Shown here piece after piece: positions 31,601-40,124 of a DNA stretch of 64,000 nt (positions are counted from its first letter, which is position 1; the number at the start of each line of letters is the position of its first letter). The stretch lies in assembly GCA_942159475.1 (NCBI GenBank), contig OW804094.1:131364755-131428754 (forward strand). The letters are read 5' to 3'. The notes beneath the pieces were generated by a model, which saw only the letters and a list, made by a program, of their open reading frames with translations, was not told the DNA's origin and made no database searches. Made by a program: the position numbers and the translations under genes. The DNA comes from Sthenelais limicola (lineage: Eukaryota; Annelida; Polychaeta; Phyllodocida; Sigalionidae).

Positions 31601-31624
31601 CCGGGTCGCGGCCGGGTCAGGCCA

Positions 31625-31697
31625 CCCAGGCCCATAGAGCGCGCAGTGGTAAGGTGGGTGCAGAGAGGACGTCACGGTAAGGGATTGGCGCGACTAG
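31625..31697 (+). repeat. 73 bp dispersed repeat, left copy
   Basis: Direct copy of 39202-39273. Shared blocks are CCCAGGCCCATAGAGCGC, TAAGGTGGG, GAGAGGACGTCAC and GTAAGGGATTGGC, then CGACTAG. It contains a GACGTCA (CRE-like) core. The two copies lie outside the target duplications of the LINE between them. Confidence 0.85.
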
Positions 31698-32271
31698 GTA
31701 ATCTGTATTTCTCAAATGTTCAACTGTAAAGACCAGTACAGGGTATTGAATTCAGTCGCCCCTAGCAACAGTGCTTTTTAAAGCGTGTGGGGGACTTCAA
31801 ACATACAGGCACATTTGGAGAAAATGTGGATCTAAATTAAACAAAAATATTTATTCAAATCGGTACATTCTGAGTGGAGCTGTGAGGGGAATTAGAGCCA
31901 TTGCCTCTGGCAGTCAGAGTCAAAACCATTGCAAATGTTGATCAGCCAGAAATTAATGTATCTCTGGAGTCATTACCATAGCCCATATTTGGACATTCAG
32001 TCTCCATGGGAGGAGCTAAGGTTCTAAAGCATTATATTAAGCAGCGCCTTCCACTGTCTAACTCAAGCACCATTTTGAAATGAAAACATGCGGCTCCCTC
32101 AAGTGTTTCTCTCACATGAGAACCATTATTAAAAGTAATCCAAGATACAGTATATAGAAACACATGAAAGTAAGTTTTGAGAATGCTTTTGCAAGTAGTG
32201 AAGAATCTCTATGCTATAATTCTTAATAATATCGGTAAAACTAAGGGTTTTAATTTGGAGAAATGACTTTT

Positions 32272-32285
32272 GTAAATCAACTCTT
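32272..32285. repeat. LINE target site duplication, left copy
   Basis: GTAAATCAACTCTT, identical to 38950-38963. The last two T bases may instead belong to the complement of the A-tail. Confidence 0.9.
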
Positions 32286-32314
32286 TTTTTTCTTTTTTTT
32301 CCCAACGCCGGGTA

Positions 32315-32320
32315 TTTATT
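32315..32320 (-). terminator. LINE polyadenylation signal AATAAA
   Basis: AATAAA on the minus strand, about 15 bases before the A-rich tail (complement of the T-run at 32284-32300). Confidence 0.75.
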
Positions 32321-32757
32321 CAATCTTTCAACAAAACTGTTCTCCAGGGCCGATAACACTTCAGATACATTAGACCCTTTTCCATTTCTGCATCAATATT
32401 TTGATTTCAACTCATTTTAACACTATCATTGACCACATTCGATATGTATTATATATTTTCTACTTTTTAGATGTTGTGATCGACATACATAATAAAACAT
32501 GATATTTGAGACCATTTTCAACCGTGTTGATTACATAACATGTTTTTGACTTAGTTTGTTACATAGATCTTTTACACTTTGTACCAAATGCGCACCACTG
32601 TAATACAGACTAGTTTTGACTAGATGCTCATATTATGCCACTCGCATTCGTGCTAGCACCGGTTTTTTTTCTTGTTTTCACACTACTTTTCTGTAAGTAT
32701 GTTATACAAAGTTATCCCCTCTGTTGTAGTATGTCAGAGGGTTGAACACATCAATAT

Positions 32758-34101
32758 TTACAAATCGTTATACAGTTTCTCCCATCTCTGCCATTCTCTC
32801 TTATGGGTTGCATTAATGTAAGAGCTATCTTTCATAGTTCTCAACTTAGACTTTAGTTCTCTAAGGAATTCGAAGAAGCAAATTCTATTTTTCATGAAGA
32901 TTTTGCTTTTATATATATAGAATCTGGCTAGTATTAAGATATAGTTCCAGGTACAGTATTTCTCTCCTAGGTTGGGTATCCCAAACAACATAAATATGGC
33001 ATTCATACTCTCTGAAATTTCTCTGTCTAGGTGCACGTTATTTTTCGCCCAACGAATTAAGTGATGCCAGAATGTACTGGAGTTTTCACAATCGATGAAA
33101 AAGTGAAATAGATCATCTTTTGTGTCACAAAAACTACATAACTTATTGAGTCTTATATTCATATCTTTCAGGTGTTCGTTACATATGATTAGTCTGTTTA
33201 TGACTTTATATTGAAAAGATTGTAGCCTTACATTTCTTGTACATTTGAAGGACGTGCGATACCATATTGCGAATTCAATGTTGGAGATGTCTATTCCACG
33301 GTTCAGAAACATTTTTTCCCAAATGTCATTTCTATCACCTTTAGCATGTATGTGTACTCGTACAGCATTATATATTATACCCGATGGAGCTATAAGTATG
33401 TTGACATCTTCAGATCCTATCTGACATATTAGTTCTTCCCTGAAGTTGATGACTTCATCGTTTTTCAGTATGTTTAACCAACGGGTTGGGACTTTCCCTT
33501 TTAAACTTAGTTCTTCTAGGAAATTGATATCTATACCGTATTCACACATGATTTCTCTTTTATTCTTAACCCTGTCGTTTGTTATTAAATCTTCGACCTT
33601 GCTAATACATTTTCTCTTCCATGCTTTTACATTGCACAGTGCATCTTCGAGTTTTAGCCATTGGTTATTCCATATGTATTCGCATAACACACTTTTCTTA
33701 GACCTAGGTTCTTGGTTGCTATAGAATCTATTCCACACTTGGAACATTCCATTATAAAACTCAGAGAACTTACACGAGATTGCCTCTCTACATCTTAGCT
33801 TTTGTTTAACATTGTCTCCCATATTCTCTTTAATGAGCGCAGACCATTTACTGTCTGGATCATTTAGGAGTCTCTGTATCCACCTCAGCTTACATGTTAT
33901 TACTTTAGCTCTGAAGTCATGTAGCTTCAATCCGCCATTTTCGATTTTTCTACATAAGTAATGCCAGGCGATTCTATGATTTCCGCCCTTCCATATGAAG
34001 TCTGCGACCAGTTTTTGAACTTTACATATCATATACTCTTCTACGACTATCAGGTTTGCGACGTACATAAATAATGGTATAATCAGAACATTGGTGAACA
34101 T
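32758..34101 (-). CDS. LINE ORF2, C-terminal segment with Cys/His motif
   Basis: The last roughly 447 codons of ORF2, in a different frame from the preceding RT segment because of a one-base shift near 34100. The N-terminal part has FIWKGGNHRIAWHYLC and GGLKLHDF, the usual region following the RT thumb of L1-type elements. Towards the end a Cys/His motif, CSFCDTKDDLFHFFIDC (C-x2-C, then H-x4-C), followed by FW, matches the zinc-binding-like zf-RVT motif of LINE proteins. The listed first Met lies close to the shift and is not a true start. The stop at 32758 is probably the genuine ORF2 end. Confidence 0.9.
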   Translation of the reverse strand: MFTNVLIIPLFMYVANLIVVEEYMICKVQKLVADFIWKGGNHRIAWHYLCRKIENGGLKLHDFRAKVITCKLRWIQRLLNDPDSKWSALIKENMGDNVKQKLRCREAISCKFSEFYNGMFQVWNRFYSNQEPRSKKSVLCEYIWNNQWLKLEDALCNVKAWKRKCISKVEDLITNDRVKNKREIMCEYGIDINFLEELSLKGKVPTRWLNILKNDEVINFREELICQIGSEDVNILIAPSGIIYNAVRVHIHAKGDRNDIWEKMFLNRGIDISNIEFAIWYRTSFKCTRNVRLQSFQYKVINRLIICNEHLKDMNIRLNKLCSFCDTKDDLFHFFIDCENSSTFWHHLIRWAKNNVHLDREISESMNAIFMLFGIPNLGEKYCTWNYILILARFYIYKSKIFMKNRICFFEFLRELKSKLRTMKDSSYINATHKREWQRWEKLYNDL

Positions 34102-34999
34102 TGATGATCTTACCTTTCATTGAAATGTCTCTCTTGCTCCAATGATTAACAATTATCTTTGCTTTTTCAAAAGCTGTTTCAAAATTGATAAGGTTCTGTT
34201 TTTGCTTGTCATATGGATATACAAGGTGTATACCTAAAATTTTCATTGAGTTGACCCAGTTAATACTCTGGCATACAGGTTGATATAGTATCATTTCTCC
34301 AATGTTAAAACCTCTGGTTTTTCCTGCATTGAGAATTAGCCCAGACACATTACCGAATTCATTGATTAAGCTCATCATTCTGGCCAGGGATTTTTCATCA
34401 TTGGCTACTATTGTCATGTCATCAGCGAACTGGATGATTTTGTTTTCAACTCCACCAAATACAACACCTTGACAATCTGGATCTTTTCTTATCTTTTCGG
34501 CTAGTTTCTCAACAACAATGATAAAGAGTAGGGACGAGATAGGATCCCCTTGTTTGACACCTCGCTTTACGCTGAACCATTCCGACATGTGACCGTTGTT
34601 TATTATACATGACCTTGAGCCTATCATGAGTCTTTTAATCCAACTCAAGAAAAACTCTCCAATATTTAGATCATCTAAACATTTAAACAGGAACTCCCAT
34701 GATACAGAATCATAGGCTTTTCGGAAATCTAATGATACGAACAAGCCTTTCTTTTTCTTATTATCTAGATGTTGAGTGATATCTTCCAGCCTTCTAACGG
34801 CACAGCCGATATATCTGTTCTTAATGAAACCGTACTGGTCCTCATTTACAACATTACTTATACAATTTTTTAGTCTATTACATAATGTTTTAGAAATTAT
34901 TTTATAATCAGTGTTGAGGAGTGTTATGGGTCTCCAGCTCTCTATAAGTTTTAAATTGCAATCTTTTTTGGGTATCAGCGATATTATTCCCCTGTACAT
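34022..34999 (-). CDS. LINE ORF2, reverse transcriptase segment
   Basis: This segment holds the core of the reverse transcriptase. ISLIPKKD and SWRPITLLNTDYKI come first, then DQYGFIKNRYIG, the catalytic-Asp block FVSLDFRKAYDSVSW (about residues 87-101), GVKQGDPISSLLFIIVVE (147-164) and the catalytic FADD box (191-194). It is in the same frame as the upstream endonuclease segment. A single TAA at 35000-35002, where family members have a sense codon, splits them. It ends by frameshifting near 34100, after DISMKGKI. The motif spacing is that of L1/Tx1 elements, quite unlike the LINE at 3.8 kb. Confidence 0.93.
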   Translation of the reverse strand: MYRGIISLIPKKDCNLKLIESWRPITLLNTDYKIISKTLCNRLKNCISNVVNEDQYGFIKNRYIGCAVRRLEDITQHLDNKKKKGLFVSLDFRKAYDSVSWEFLFKCLDDLNIGEFFLSWIKRLMIGSRSCIINNGHMSEWFSVKRGVKQGDPISSLLFIIVVEKLAEKIRKDPDCQGVVFGGVENKIIQFADDMTIVANDEKSLARMMSLINEFGNVSGLILNAGKTRGFNIGEMILYQPVCQSINWVNSMKILGIHLVYPYDKQKQNLINFETAFEKAKIIVNHWSKRDISMKGKIINVHQCSDYTIIYVRRKPDSRRRVYDM

Positions 35000-36532
35000 T
35001 TAATGTGACATGCTGTCGGATAATATACATTCTTTGATTACCTCTTCAAAAATAGGGCTTAAAATGCCCCAAAAACATTTGTAAAACTCGGCTGGTAGCC
35101 CGTCTGGACCCGGCGCTTTGTTATTGGCGAAGGATTCCAAGGATTTTTTTACCTCATCTGTACTAATAGCTCTGTTTAGCACTTCGTTTTCTAAAGAATC
35201 AAAAGTGGAGGCATCTGACACTTCCAAAAAGCAATTTCCGTTAGGTTGATGTGTCTCCTTTTCGTCATAAAGTTTTTGATAGAAGTCTTTCTCTGCTTTC
35301 AGAATTTCATCTGAATTTGTGATTGTGACTCCGTTAAATTCTAATTGCGAGATTACTTTTTTTTTGAAATTTCTTTTTTCCAAATTTAGAAAGTAGGCGG
35401 TGGGTTTTTCCCCTTCCACTAGCCATTGTGCCCTACTGCGGGCCATGGCGCCTTGTGCTTTTATATATTGTTCAGAGCGTAATTCTTCTTTTAAGCTATC
35501 CATCTCGTGGCTTTCTGCCTCATTTAGGACGCCTTTTTGAAACAATATGCGCATTCTTTCTCTATACTCCTCTTCAGTTTTTCGTTTTTCTCTATTTTTC
35601 TTTTTCGCATACTTAATAGATTCTTTACGAACAACAAACTTAATATAATCCCACTTGGCTCTAGCACTACCTAGGCCTTCCATATTGTAAGCTTCTGTTA
35701 TTTTATCATTTAGCATGTCTACATATTCTTCACTGTTCAATAAATACTTATTGAATTTCCACACTCCTGGGCCTCTACCTTGTTCACTTGATTTTACTGC
35801 AAAGGATATAAGTGTGTGGTCAGAGAATTCGCTAAACTCATTATTAACACCTCTCACTTCTGGTCTTAACGTGGGGTCTATCATGCAATAGTCTAGTCTT
35901 GAGCATTGTAAACTCTGAGAGTTTCTACTCCATGTATTCATATTAGTATTATCAGGTGACATTTCTTTTATAATATCGCATAATTCAAAGTCATGCATGA
36001 TTTTTATCATACTCTTCAATCCAATGTGTTTTGCGTGTTGACTATCACTCAATTGTAGGAAATCTTCCTCTGACATTATATCAAGATTGAAGTCTCCCAT
36101 AACTATCAACGATCTATCTTCTTTAGAAACTAATATTTCTCTCAGCTTGTTACACATAATCACTTGCTCTTTATATGCATCTTTTGTTGGGAAGTACACA
36201 GAAAATATGGACATTTCTTTTTGTTCAAGAGTTATATCTATATATGCGATTCTTCCTAGATCATCTCCTCCCTTACATTTAAACACAACGCTTAGGTCTT
36301 TCGATACGAGGATAGCAACTCCTCTTGCGTTTCTTTTGCCGTGTACAAAGTGTGAGTCACCTTGCCACTGATTTCTCCATATATTGATATTATTAGATAC
36401 ACTATGTGTTTCCTGTAATGCAAATATCGACCTCTTTTTTTTATTTAGAAATCTAAAGAGGGCTTTCCTCTTTGTGATGGATGCAGCTCCGTTAACATTC
36501 AAGGAGTAAAAATTTATATTGTTGTCCTCCAT
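35000..36532 (-). CDS. LINE ORF2, apurinic-like endonuclease and start of RT
   Basis: The true N-terminus of ORF2 (510 codons to the premature stop). The first 250 residues form an APE-type endonuclease with all expected catalytic signatures: SLNVNGA (residues 10-16), LQETHS with the metal-binding Glu (about 41), MGDFNLD (145-151), SRLDYCMID (211-219) and the FSDH Asp-His pair (236-239). A lysine/arginine-rich linker follows. Near the end NKAPGPDGLPAEFYK opens the reverse transcriptase domain. The start ATG at 36532 is preceded by an in-frame stop. In life the enzyme would nick target DNA to prime reverse transcription. Confidence 0.93.
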   Translation of the reverse strand: MEDNNINFYSLNVNGAASITKRKALFRFLNKKKRSIFALQETHSVSNNINIWRNQWQGDSHFVHGKRNARGVAILVSKDLSVVFKCKGGDDLGRIAYIDITLEQKEMSIFSVYFPTKDAYKEQVIMCNKLREILVSKEDRSLIVMGDFNLDIMSEEDFLQLSDSQHAKHIGLKSMIKIMHDFELCDIIKEMSPDNTNMNTWSRNSQSLQCSRLDYCMIDPTLRPEVRGVNNEFSEFSDHTLISFAVKSSEQGRGPGVWKFNKYLLNSEEYVDMLNDKITEAYNMEGLGSARAKWDYIKFVVRKESIKYAKKKNREKRKTEEEYRERMRILFQKGVLNEAESHEMDSLKEELRSEQYIKAQGAMARSRAQWLVEGEKPTAYFLNLEKRNFKKKVISQLEFNGVTITNSDEILKAEKDFYQKLYDEKETHQPNGNCFLEVSDASTFDSLENEVLNRAISTDEVKKSLESFANNKAPGPDGLPAEFYKCFWGILSPIFEEVIKECILSDSMSH

Positions 36533-36534
36533 TA

Positions 36535-36834
36535 TTATATTTTAAAGGGACTACCTTCTATCCACCTCACTTTACGTACACACTTATCTTTTTTAAAGTT
36601 CAGAATTTTTCTTACTTGAGTAATACACTTTTGCATCATGAGTCTTACATTTGTCTTTACCCAATTATAGGTTATATCGCATAAATAACATTGTGTCGAA
36701 CCCTTAATAAGGTTGGGTTTTTTTATGACATCCCATTGGACATCTACCCATTTTACCAATATTGTATCATACATTTTGTTTGTAAATATGTTCAGATAAC
36801 AAGGCACAATATTACATGCATTTAGAGGCACCTA
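36535..36834 (-). other. LINE inter-ORF spacer, open after the ORF1 stop
   Basis: Between ORF1 and ORF2 lies about 300 bp. The ORF1 frame stays open for 98 codons after its TAG stop and closes three bases before the ORF2 ATG. The translation includes CYLCDITYNWVK and many Lys/Arg. I do not recognise a domain, and CCHC zinc knuckles are absent. It may be a non-coding spacer, an extra small ORF, or a readthrough tail. Confidence 0.4.
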
Positions 36835-37616
36835 GGAGCCTCCCACCGCTATCTCCATCTTTTCTCCTTCCTGGTCGTTTTCCGCTGCTTCTCCTTCAGC
36901 CTTGGCGACCAGTCTTTCTCTCACTCTCATCCACGAACGACCAAGTAGGTTTCCTTTCTTATTCCACTTTTCTTGATCTAGGACGTTGTTGTCGTAGAGA
37001 CTCATCCCAATGCCCCATTTGGATACCACAGGTGAGGCTTCACCTATGACTTTATCGCCAGTAGCTAGGAGAAATTCCGCGATGAACTCGTTGTATTTCA
37101 CCTTTCTCTTTAATCCTCTCATTAGGGTCGCCTCAAGACCTTCATCCCATTGATCCCACACATCATCTGAGACATAGGCATCTAATGCTACCTTGCATCT
37201 CACAGGGTCGTCCAGGGTCAAAATATAATCCGCCTTTTGTAGGTCATCATCTAGAACTGCTTTTGCGTGAGCCAAGTACTGCTCGATGCAGAAGAACCAT
37301 TTTTTACCCACTTTAAACTGTGCTGCATAATGGTTAGAGAGCGGGCATTCTCTGGTAAAAAACACAAATGTCCACTCATCTTCTCTCTTGGCTAGGTATC
37401 CTGGTGTAAACTGTTTAGGTAACATTTCAAGCTGATCATATCTGTACCTTCTTTGCCCTAGTATTATGTCTCCATGGGCGTTGATAACTTGCTGATATCT
37501 TTGTGATTCCCTTGCTGCGGCTACGCACGGTCTTGCCCTTGCTATTCTCTTTCTTATCTTGTCGGGGAGATCCTTTCTGAGCCAGTACAGCCTCTTACCG
37601 TTAGGACCGCCTTCAT
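36832..37616 (-). CDS. LINE ORF1, C-terminal part with NADAR domain
   Basis: This frame opens at about 37616 with PNGKRLYWLRKDLPDKIRKR, the end of the RNA-binding region of ORF1. It runs without a break into a domain I recognise as NADAR (YbiA/DUF1768-like). Counting from the Met at 37425: CPLSN (27-31), IEQYLAHAKA (47-56), a TGD turn (122-124), EAS (129-131), KWGIG (136-140) and GNLLG (158-162), then the closing helix RSWMRVRERL. The domain is about 160 residues, normal for the family. It ends with an acidic tail and TAG at 36832. NADAR proteins bind or process ADP-ribose-type ligands, and some bacterial ones reverse DNA ADP-ribosylation. The role in this LINE is inference. The position expected to hold Asp before WG appears to be Val. 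Confidence 0.85.
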
Positions 37617-38213
37617 ATTTGTCACATCATCGAAGGTAATTAATATGGGTGCAGCTTTGCCCCTGCCCATTCGTTTTACCTCATATTGGACTGCTTTGGA
37701 CATGCCCATGGAGTTTTCCAGGACGTGTGCGACCTTGTTTTTTAAGAGATTGTCATCTTCGTTCTCTTCTTTTCTAGCCCCATCCAGTATCAGATTGAGT
37801 TCCATATCTTTTATTTGCTGTTTCAGCTGTGTTTCCTCACTACCTATCTCGGCCATGTCAATGGCAACTAGTCTTGGGTCCGACTTTTTCACCATGTTTA
37901 TTTTAAGGAGTTCAATCTCCTCTTTTTGCCGTCCTATCTCTGTCTCCATCTTGTCTGCTCTGATGTCCCTGTTGAAGTTATCTCCTTCAATCTTATCAAC
38001 AGCAATGATAGTATCACCGATCTTTTTGTCACGACCTTCATTTCCCTCAGCGAACTTGGTTTTCAGTTCGTCGAACATAGTCCTGATTTCCTCATTTGAA
38101 ATCTTCGCCATTTCACTTACTTTTTTCTTACTTGCTGATTTTTCAAAGTCCTCACCTTCTCTTTTCCTCTTATTGGGATCCTTATCCACCGTGGAAGTCA
38201 TTAAATCCAGCAA
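37554..38213 (-). CDS. LINE ORF1, N-terminal coiled-coil and RRM-like part
   Basis: Begins at ATG 38213 and runs 219 codons to a frameshift-induced stop. A basic patch (KRKREG, SKKK) is followed by a long, charged, heptad-like helix region (about residues 35-130) suited to coiled-coil multimerisation. An RRM-like segment follows, with LNLILDGARKEEN and APILITFDDVTNMKAVL, as in L1-type ORF1 RNA-binding proteins. After about residue 203 the sequence becomes nonsense while the correct continuation appears in the next frame, placing a one-base shift between about 37590 and 37625. The protein would package the element RNA. Confidence 0.85.
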   Translation of the reverse strand: MLDLMTSTVDKDPNKRKREGEDFEKSASKKKVSEMAKISNEEIRTMFDELKTKFAEGNEGRDKKIGDTIIAVDKIEGDNFNRDIRADKMETEIGRQKEEIELLKINMVKKSDPRLVAIDMAEIGSEETQLKQQIKDMELNLILDGARKEENEDDNLLKNKVAHVLENSMGMSKAVQYEVKRMGRGKAAPILITFDDVTNMKAVLTVRGCTGSERISPTR

Positions 38214-38949
38214 TTACTCGCACTTTTGGGTACTCCAGGTTTGTTATTGTTTTGCCCGGAAGCTTACTTTACACTTTGTCTTCCGGTTCTTTTGCCATGC
38301 GCAGACTTCCTTATTAGGAAATCAGGTCGGGCTGACCTAGTTCCAGTGTCTATTTCTCGTGTACGTACTGATCACTATGTGTGTTTTCGGTAATCAACAT
38401 AAAGCTCCAAGCATGTTCAGTTATTCTAGATATTCACATTACCTTTACAACACTTGATGTTCTTGCTTTTGTAATTCGAATCAATTACTCGGCCAGTAGC
38501 GTTGTGTCCAGCGTGGTTTGGTTGTGCTTTGCGCATGCGCGGCGGCAAACTCAAACACCTTCTTTTAATCGTCTATTTTCACTTTATGTCCTATTTTGTC
38601 ACACTTTTACACTTATAGTCCATGTGCTCTACAAGGTCAGGTATCTTATGCTATAAGATGTTCCAGCTCTATAACTTCAATGCACAGTATATGTCCACGT
38701 TAAATTCGCGCCCTGGAGATGCCCTGGGGCAAGATGGCGCCTTGTTAATCCAGCGTGTTTCTTTTAGTCCAGAATCGAAAGATCTGATTTTCACTTAACA
38801 AGTCCGATTTGAGTCCTCAACTTTAGTTTTCCTTGATCTATGTGACTTTATACAGACACTAGACGTTTTTCCTTTATCACACTTATGGCTTAGCTGAAAA
38901 AAAAGGGACGAACAGACCGAGGTCTCTTTGGGTACCTTCTCGCTTTCCC
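38214..38949 (-). promoter_or_regulatory. LINE 5'UTR / internal promoter region
   Basis: The element sequence between the right target duplication and ORF1. It is GC-richer than the flanks and contains GCGCATGCGC at 38531-38540, a perfect NRF1-type palindrome. It also has AAGATGGCGCC at 38731-38741, a YY1-like site that reads on the strand opposite to ORF1. Such sites are typical of TATA-less internal promoters of LINEs; activity is inferred. Confidence 0.55.
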
Positions 38950-38963
38950 GTAAATCAACTCTT
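38950..38963. repeat. LINE target site duplication, right copy
   Basis: GTAAATCAACTCTT, identical to 32272-32285, directly abutting the 5' end of the LINE. Confidence 0.9.
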
Positions 38964-39191: not shown

Positions 39192-39203
39192 CCCCCCCCC
39201 CCC
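39192..39203 (+). repeat. Poly-C run (12 bases)
   Basis: Twelve consecutive C, abutting the right copy of the 73 bp dispersed repeat. Confidence 0.95.
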
Positions 39204-39273
39204 AGGCCCATAGAGCGCATACCGATAAGGTGGGCGCGGAGAGGACGTCACAGTAAGGGATTGGCACGACTAG
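39202..39273 (+). repeat. 73 bp dispersed repeat, right copy
   Basis: Direct copy of 31625-31697 with about a dozen differences, many of them at CpG positions (GCGCG against GCACG, CACGG against CACAG). Confidence 0.85.
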
Positions 39274-40124
39274 CTACCGGTGCTACATATCACTTTATAT
39301 GGTAGCGCATCGGGGCCGTTTTGACGGGTCCATTTTTGCGTGGGGATGTTTTGACAGGCATTCACCACAACAATCAGTGATTACATGTACATTTTATATG
39401 CTACACAGCTATATAAAAGGGGTTTTTGATATATACCTGTACTTTTCTCATTACAGAAGCTGGCACGAGGAAGAAATGCATCAAAAGAAAATGATACACT
39501 AAAATGATGAAATGATGAAGTCTGCCCCCCCCCCCAAATTCAATGAATGAAAAAAACAAATAAATAATTAAGAGGTATTTTCTTGGGCCAGTACAGGCCT
39601 CCCCCACCCAGCTTTTACACGCACCACTGAGCAATCCAAGCCGCCACCGCCTCGGTAAGGCGACTGATTTTACGCGCTTAGCGCGTGGTGACGTCACTAC
39701 CCACTCACGGCCGCCAGTAGAAAGGTACGCGAAAAGCCAATATAGATAAGCGCTATGAGCGTGCAACAAGTTGACCCGCCTTTCGCGTACTTTCACTAGG
39801 GAAATGCGTGAACACTTACCACAGTGTAGTCAAGAATTACCTATCATGAATTTTCGGTCACTAAAGGTATATAAATGCCAGCACTGCAGCAGGCGGAAAT
39901 TCAAGAAACTAATGCATGAAAAAATAGAAATCATGATATTTTTTCCAAACTTCGTCTTGAGAAAGAACATGGTTGGGGGAATACAAAAAGCCAAATACAC
40001 AGGATGTTATCATATCATTTTGTGTTTTAGGGATGACTGAAGTTTACTTCCATTCACTATTGATGTCAATGGGGGAAAACTCACCATGCAAGTTCAGCTG
40101 AATAACTTTTTTTAGTTCAATGAC

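Follow-up and report, generated by a model that had tools for sequence, protein, structure and literature searches.

Our study identified, in a stretch of 64,000 nucleotides from the genome of Sthenelais limicola (the whole stretch is called the window here), a LINE whose ORF1 protein, of about 470 aa in open copies, is an ORF1 body fused to a C-terminal NADAR domain of the YbiA type. Judged from sequence comparisons, this domain is a selected part of a mobile LINE, because open copies exist, the two catalytic Glu positions are kept in 47 of 47 sequences and dN/dS lies between 0.04 and 0.12. A LINE with NADAR in its ORF1 is already in print, in an uncharacterised form (PMC12477816). Our results add the annelid host, the abundance of the element, its mobility, the selection on the domain, the conservation of its catalytic positions, and the presence of a related ORF1-NADAR in a second LINE group that is distant from the first.

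The insertion lies on the minus strand of the window between the two copies of its target site duplication, and its parts are the following.

38950..38963, no strand: target site duplication, 5'-flanking copy, GTAAATCAACTCTT on the plus strand, an exact 14-base direct repeat
32272..32285, no strand: target site duplication, 3'-flanking copy, GTAAATCAACTCTT on the plus strand, the same exact 14-base repeat
32286..38949, minus strand: LINE insertion, with its 5' end at 38949 and its A-rich 3' end at about 32286-32300 (duplication positions and ends as read)
37554..38213, minus strand: ORF1 N-terminal half in its own frame, coiled-coil-like and RRM-like, the true ORF1 reading up to a deletion near 37606
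36832..37626, minus strand: ORF1 C-terminal part, made of a CTD-like segment, a linker, NADAR and a short tail, stop codon included, with the same reading in the open copies L029-L039
35000..36541, minus strand: ORF2 endonuclease part (Exo_endo_phos, Pfam E 8.8e-16), ended by a stop in the window copy
34022..34999, minus strand: ORF2 reverse transcriptase part (RVT_1, Pfam E 2.7e-45)
32758..34116, minus strand: ORF2 C-terminal part in another frame, zf-RVT-like (PF13966 E 4e-5, 24.6 bits, below the cut-off of 27.5)

Since human L1 ORF2p is the best PDB match of both the endonuclease (E 8.1e-30) and the reverse transcriptase (E 2.1e-38), the window element is, on its sequence, an L1-type LINE, within the L1/Tx1 group. 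The target site duplication and the A-rich tail are further likenesses to human LINE-1, whereas the added NADAR sets the ORF1 of the window element apart from that of human LINE-1 and from the type II ORF1 architecture (coiled coil, RRM, CTD; PF02994, 2yko). ORF2 is broken in the window copy into three pieces, the C-terminal one being in another frame. An imperfect repeat of about 70 bases, in the same orientation, also flanks the LINE, beyond the two copies of the duplication (window 31620-31700 and 39200-39277).

The minus-strand frame 36832-37626 encodes 264 aa and continues without a stop from the ORF1 body (NGKRLYWLRKDLPDKIRKR) into NADAR, as an earlier sequence-only reading of this DNA had described; the perfect target duplications that it had placed around the LINE are likewise found, as the exact 14-base repeat just outside both ends. 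One correction is that, in the window copy, the N-terminal half of ORF1 is located in another frame after a 37-base loss. The change of frame is damage, because the window copy is without 37 bases near 37606 that are present in the close copy L051, with 9 mismatches in 1384 aligned bases between the two. A programmed frameshift in ORF1 was considered and rejected, given that the same stretch is a single frame in close copies and that the window copy is without these 37 bases.

The body of the protein is probably coiled-coil-like, RRM-like and CTD-like, the coiled coil of the N-terminal half having been read by eye. PF02994 was absent among the families listed, at E up to 1, for 11 L1-type and 15 other ORF1 members. 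The ORF1-body profile of the second LINE group matched L1 ORF1p at a non-significant E of 0.049, and that of the L1-type group gave no L1 ORF1p match at E up to 10.

The NADAR domain and its catalytic residues occupy these positions of the window.

36910..37353, minus strand: NADAR domain, frame residues 92-239 (Pfam, NCBIfam, AlphaFold with Foldseek/VIA)
37282..37284, minus strand: Glu 115, equivalent of E43 (P. nicotianae) and E88 (E. coli C7)
37261..37263, minus strand: Lys 122, equivalent of K50 and K95, respectively
37039..37041, minus strand: Glu 196, equivalent of E125, the YbiA-type catalytic Glu

Different lines of evidence confirm that this is a complete YbiA-type NADAR. Pfam PF08719 matches the window frame over residues 92-239 (E 1.9e-19, 70.9 bits for a cut-off of 35.1), NCBIfam TIGR02464 reaches 86.7 bits (cut-off 73.7), the PDB sequence match is 8bau (E 1.2e-6), and the predicted fold (AlphaFold, Foldseek/VIA) is closest to 8bau and YbiA and has the YbiA fold. 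The complete NADAR-like domain proposed from the letters alone therefore has a significant match by profile and by structure.

The catalytic positions of the P. nicotianae structure are E43, K50 and E125 (PMC11543638), which we mapped by alignment to E115, K122 and E196 of the window. The aligned set consisted of 47 sequences: 16 L1-type (window included), 21 from the other LINEs, 2 from a virus-like element and 8 from the protein collection; 11 near-copies had been excluded beforehand, and two pairs that are identical over the aligned columns stay in it. The first and third positions are Glu in all 47, the second is Lys in 35 and Arg in 12, and the equivalent of W133 is Trp in 47 of 47. The replacement of Lys by Arg occurs in 11 of the 21 rows of the second LINE group versus 1 of the 16 L1-type rows, and an Arg in place of that Lys has been reported to retain in-vitro activity in the E. 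coli C7 NADAR (PMC11543638). The domain is not of the BC4488 type: Glu 196 stands at the E125 equivalent, whereas BC4488-type NADARs have an Asp (D171 in E. coli C7), whose site, two places before Glu 196, is occupied here by Ile.

R79, Y84 and D86, on the adenine side of 8bau, together with D130, are changed in the window's family (alignments read by eye). At the R93 position, 10 of the 16 L1-type rows have Leu, and 1 of the 21 other LINE rows has Arg. Some ADP-ribose contacts are retained. Because residues of the adenine side and part of those of the pyrophosphate side are changed, the substrate may differ from that of the P. nicotianae NADAR. In contrast to the window domain, neither the P. 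nicotianae NADAR (8bau) nor E. coli YbiA (2b3w) belongs to a protein of a mobile element, and the adenine-side contacts of 8bau are not retained in the window's family. The DarT1-NADAR toxin-antitoxin system, whose NADAR acts on ADP-ribosylated nucleic acid, is a model for the possible role of the LINE domain; it differs in that the window NADAR has the YbiA-type Glu, with Ile where BC4488-type NADARs have Asp, and in that the Pfam matches of five window ORFs include no DarT.

We searched the genome of Sthenelais limicola (scale worm; Annelida, Sigalionidae; 1,130,627,326 bases) for the NADAR family and for the window frame. The best 150 of 5561 first-look candidates for the family were scored, and all 150 were above the Pfam cut-off, 2 of them with an in-frame stop; the window frame gave at least 146 matches, window included (3940 first-look candidates, best 145 scored). 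The two lists may overlap, and the LINE context is that of the fetched loci and not of every match. Six matches besides the window have 95-99% identity to it over residues 7-263/264 and open frames of 465-472 aa. In 19 of the 20 ORF1 regions fetched, a single open frame of 463-486 aa ends in NADAR; the remaining one, L040, has 388 aa.

Full insertions elsewhere in the genome were compared with the window copy. In long DNA alignments, L050 is 98%, L051 99% and L052 88-95% identical to it, and their flanks, inspected by eye, are unlike those of the window. Each has a target duplication of its own: 15 bases in L050 and 16 bases in L051, both found by search, and about 12 bases in L052, read by eye where the search gave none. 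No common target was seen among these four copies. In L050, ORF1 (472 aa) and ORF2 (1259 aa) are both open, FADD and SDH motifs are present, and ORF2 is one frame with the same beginning and end as the window ORF2; in L051 and L052, ORF2 is broken. Because copies that are 98-99% identical sit at other sites, the window LINE appears to be a damaged copy of an element that moved recently.

Selection on NADAR was estimated by Nei-Gojobori counts in the four pairs with usable synonymous divergence among the pairs listed. The ratio dN/dS is 0.082 for L029/L034 (6 nonsynonymous and 18 synonymous changes; Fisher p 1.4e-8), 0.116 for L035/L039 (9 and 19; p 7.5e-8), 0.040 for L007/L020 (18 and 64; dS 1.35; p 1.8e-34) and 0.043 for L009/L011 (16 and 56; dS 1.07; p 5.5e-30), for loci that came from high-scoring matches and are thus biased toward open frames. 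With slightly different domain borders, the first two values become 0.10 and 0.14. Synonymous sites of NADAR are saturated in 15 deeper pairs of the window's group, where NADAR dN is 0.05-0.30, lower than that of the coil part in 15 of 15 pairs and of the RRM-like part in 13, and higher than that of the CTD/linker in 12. Across the two LINE groups, dN/dS is saturated and uninformative.

The sequence-only reading had assigned NADAR to the mobile element and not to a neighbour, and this assignment stands: ORF1 and NADAR share one frame in 19 of 20 fetched regions, and copies are present at other sites. The domain is not a one-off, as the six relatives at 95-99% identity make clear, and the purifying selection for which that reading had proposed to look is found in all four pairs, along with the preservation of the catalytic positions. 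A neighbouring gene or a chance insertion was rejected as an explanation on the basis of the many matches, the single open frames and the open copies elsewhere.

A NADAR ORF1 of another kind was found in 18 of the 20 ten-kilobase loci fetched from the NADAR-family list. Its open frames have 574-827 aa and a long tail after NADAR, and an ORF2-like frame follows downstream in 17 of the 18 loci (905-1081 aa where unbroken, according to the ORF listing). Two of these ORF2s were compared with Pfam: that of L009 has RVT_1 and Exo_endo_phos, and that of L010 has RVT_1 but, of the endonuclease families, only Exo_endo_phos_2. The reverse transcriptase of L010 matches that of L1 weakly (E 6.9e-17), and the two L1-type rows are far from the others in an ORF2 tree of 19 rows. 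Its size and make-up suggest that this second group is of the CR1/L2/Jockey kind. An extra ORF is located between ORF1 and ORF2 in 9 of the 18 loci.

L010, 3492-4199: extra ORF
L012, 3606-4214: extra ORF
L014, 5403-6341: extra ORF
L017, 5720-6370: extra ORF
L020, 5764-6408: extra ORF
L021, 3800-4423: extra ORF
L022, 5795-6529: extra ORF
L025, 5577-6521: extra ORF
L026, 3696-4439: extra ORF

In most of these extra ORFs, DSRG stands close to the start and DG-H close to the end, motifs that we take to be like those of SGNH/GDSL hydrolases; among the nine scanned with Pfam, two have an SGNH/GDSL esterase match, both under the cut-off (E 0.0086 and 0.019). A GGICD motif was observed in L005, L006 and L008 of the same group.

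The ORF1 proteins of the two LINE groups are related beyond NADAR itself. The 200 residues that precede the domain align across both groups with an hhalign probability of 97.8-97.9 over 141-144 columns, up to the NADAR border, and the L1-type ORF1 profile places 13 of 18 second-group rows above the HMMER inclusion line, compared with 0 of 18 reversed controls. In the NADAR trees, each LINE group is on one branch (100/99 for the 16 L1-type rows, 98/90 for the 21 rows of the second group). Protein-collection rows, which in this tree are the seven nearest to the window, three named bacteria, join the second LINE group in the best tree (94/77), and this counts against one origin within LINEs; the alternative of both LINE groups as one NADAR clade is not rejected (AU p 0.23). 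Two NADAR sets of the second group, L010/L022/L025/L026 and L012/L017/L019/L020/L021, recur in the ORF2 tree with 100/100, and the set L009/L011/L013/L015 recurs there too. Since the same main sets are present in both trees, NADAR seems to have travelled with its ORF2 within this group. The occurrence of ORF1-NADAR in both groups may be due to a transfer between LINE lineages, to a distant common ancestor, or to repeated addition of NADAR to related bodies. That LINE lineages may exchange entire ORF1s is an earlier proposal (PMC4120745).

Outside these LINEs, the protein collection has 7 matches for the window frame and 1 for the full ORF1, the named ones being bacterial. In IMG/VR, 27 stretches yielded 2 relatives, with identities of 30 and 34%. 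The single match of the full ORF1 in the collection, P0008 (ENA source), is a protein of 560 aa with NADAR and Macro domains. L053 is a stand-alone NADAR of 157 aa. A stand-alone NADAR ORF of 162 aa is also present in a DNA-virus-like element (L023, 4749-5234, minus strand; L028, 4634-5119, plus strand) with a long ORF that looks like a type B DNA polymerase; L023 also has a packaging-ATPase-like ORF. Both likenesses were read by eye, and Pfam gave no match for three ORFs of this element. Its NADAR is not near the LINE NADARs in the NADAR tree.

LINE ORF1 proteins coat their own RNA in cis, as is established for L1. The ORF1 protein of the window element presumably does the same, in which case NADAR would accompany the RNA and reach the cDNA and the integration site. 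The best explanation of its presence, to which we give tentative and slightly less than even confidence and which the sequence-only reading had also suggested, is a predicted activity that removes ADP-ribose from the RNA, the cDNA or the integration site of the element. NADAR would most likely be an N-glycosidic hydrolase that takes ADP-ribose off nucleic acid bases or ends; ADP-ribosyltransferases of the host could mark the element or the nicked target, and removal of the mark would allow the template to be copied and the insertion to be resolved. We infer every functional step of this model, which follows from the RNA coating by ORF1 proteins, the hydrolysis of guanine-linked ADP-ribose by NADARs, the PARP domains of the host, the presence of PARP1/2 at L1 sites and an activity reported in clams. 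The host genome has 23 PARP matches among 38 candidates scored. The regions G000:C6:65853111-65854106 and G000:C7:72258945-72259940 lie in open frames of 2107 and 2098 aa, each of which has two PARP matches, and three further PARP matches are in open frames of 2030, 1205 and 899 aa. The Scabin-like family PF22596, which we take to be that of Scabin-type guanine ADP-ribosyltransferases, had no match in the host genome in a search whose control was equally silent. The NADARs assayed in two works hydrolyse guanine-linked ADP-ribose (PMC11125620, PMC11543638), among them one eukaryotic YbiA-type NADAR that hydrolyses guanine-ADP-ribose (PMC11543638). In six edible clams, an activity that ADP-ribosylates guanine N2 in DNA has been described, in a work whose accessible part does not mention annelids (PMC11209040). 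According to a review, PARP1/2 are present at human LINE-1 integration sites and PARP2 is reported to recognise the site; the same review states that PARP1/2 help L1 insertion, the loss of either reducing L1 retrotransposition by about half (PMC8535693). Because L1 retrotransposition decreases when PARP1 or PARP2 is lost, erasing PARP marks need not help the element.

Other roles for the domain were weighed against the removal of ADP-ribose marks. NADAR could be an active N-glycosidase that helps the element indirectly by acting on something else, for example a nucleotide or flavin intermediate in solution, a signal derived from NAD, or the RNA 5' cap. We consider this rather unlikely: TIGR02464, by name a riboflavin-intermediate N-glycosidase, is above its cut-off in the three proteins scanned and the adenine-side residues diverge, as such a role would have it, but an enzyme of soluble substrates has no evident need for fusion to ORF1, and the fusion occurs in two LINE groups. 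It is unlikely that NADAR is instead a reader, which would bind ADP-ribose or PAR and steer the RNP to nicks with active PARPs. Such binding could be useful if PARP2 recognises the L1 site and PARP1/2 help insertion, as reported (PMC8535693), and some ADP-ribose contacts are indeed retained; however, the conservation of both catalytic Glu in 47 of 47 sequences is more than binding seems to need, and the window's family differs at several of the adenine-side binding positions. The accessory domains of LINE ORF1 proteins vary widely (PMC4120745), which would agree with a catalytically idle extension of structural or nucleic-acid-binding function, but the catalytic positions are conserved while synonymous sites are mostly saturated, and we regard this role as very improbable. 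That a NADAR gene entered a single LINE copy by chance and has no function there, as the broken window copy taken alone might suggest, has a negligible probability in view of the open frames of 463-486 aa in 19 of 20 relatives, the dN/dS of 0.04-0.12 in four pairs and the open copies at other sites.

A broader version of the mark-removal model is that the ORF1-NADAR cassette has moved from one LINE superfamily to another and serves as a portable counter-defence, with RNPs that would erase ADP-ribose placed by the host on RNA, cDNA and the nicked target. We find this doubtful. It is weakened, as is the removal of marks itself, by the described role of PARP1/2 as helpers of L1 insertion and by the ORF2 tree of the second group, which mirrors the main NADAR sets. 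If this version were true, marine invertebrates would have a real defence against transposons that works through the ADP-ribosylation of nucleic acids.

Our search of the literature on NADAR in transposable elements found one work, from 2025, which states in one sentence that Tx1 LINEs of Crassostrea gigas in Repbase have NADAR in their ORF1, suggests RNA processing as the function, and also describes Ectocarpus Gypsy elements that have NADAR in Pol, at the N-terminus (PMC12477816). The word NADAR appears 0 times in the main text of two surveys of mollusc LINEs (PMC10294476, PMC11203168) and 0 times in the accessible part of a survey of ORF1 proteins (PMC4120745). The statement of the sequence-only reading that no characterised LINE ORF1-NADAR system was known still holds, but the association itself was printed in 2025 (PMC12477816). 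The oyster elements, known here by their printed description, share with the window element an ORF1 protein with a YbiA-family NADAR and differ from it in that the window element is from an annelid. The Ectocarpus Gypsy elements are similar as retroelements with a captured and conserved YbiA-family NADAR, as described; they differ in being LTR elements of a brown alga, where NADAR belongs to Pol instead of an ORF1 protein. Crassostrea gigas is a lophotrochozoan, as is the host of the window element.

The role of NADARs in animals has been stated as unclear (PMC11125620). In the LINEs of S. limicola, the domain is abundant, selected, catalytically conserved and tied to one process, retrotransposition, and for these reasons its role in animals becomes testable by standard assays. 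Genome annotation should also allow for the possibility that the 'NADAR genes' of such animals are in fact ORF1s of LINEs. If the LINE NADAR erases ADP-ribosylation of nucleic acids, this would point to a host pressure on transposons of which, to our knowledge, there is no description, and the ORF1 of LINEs would be a place where counter-defence enzymes are kept.
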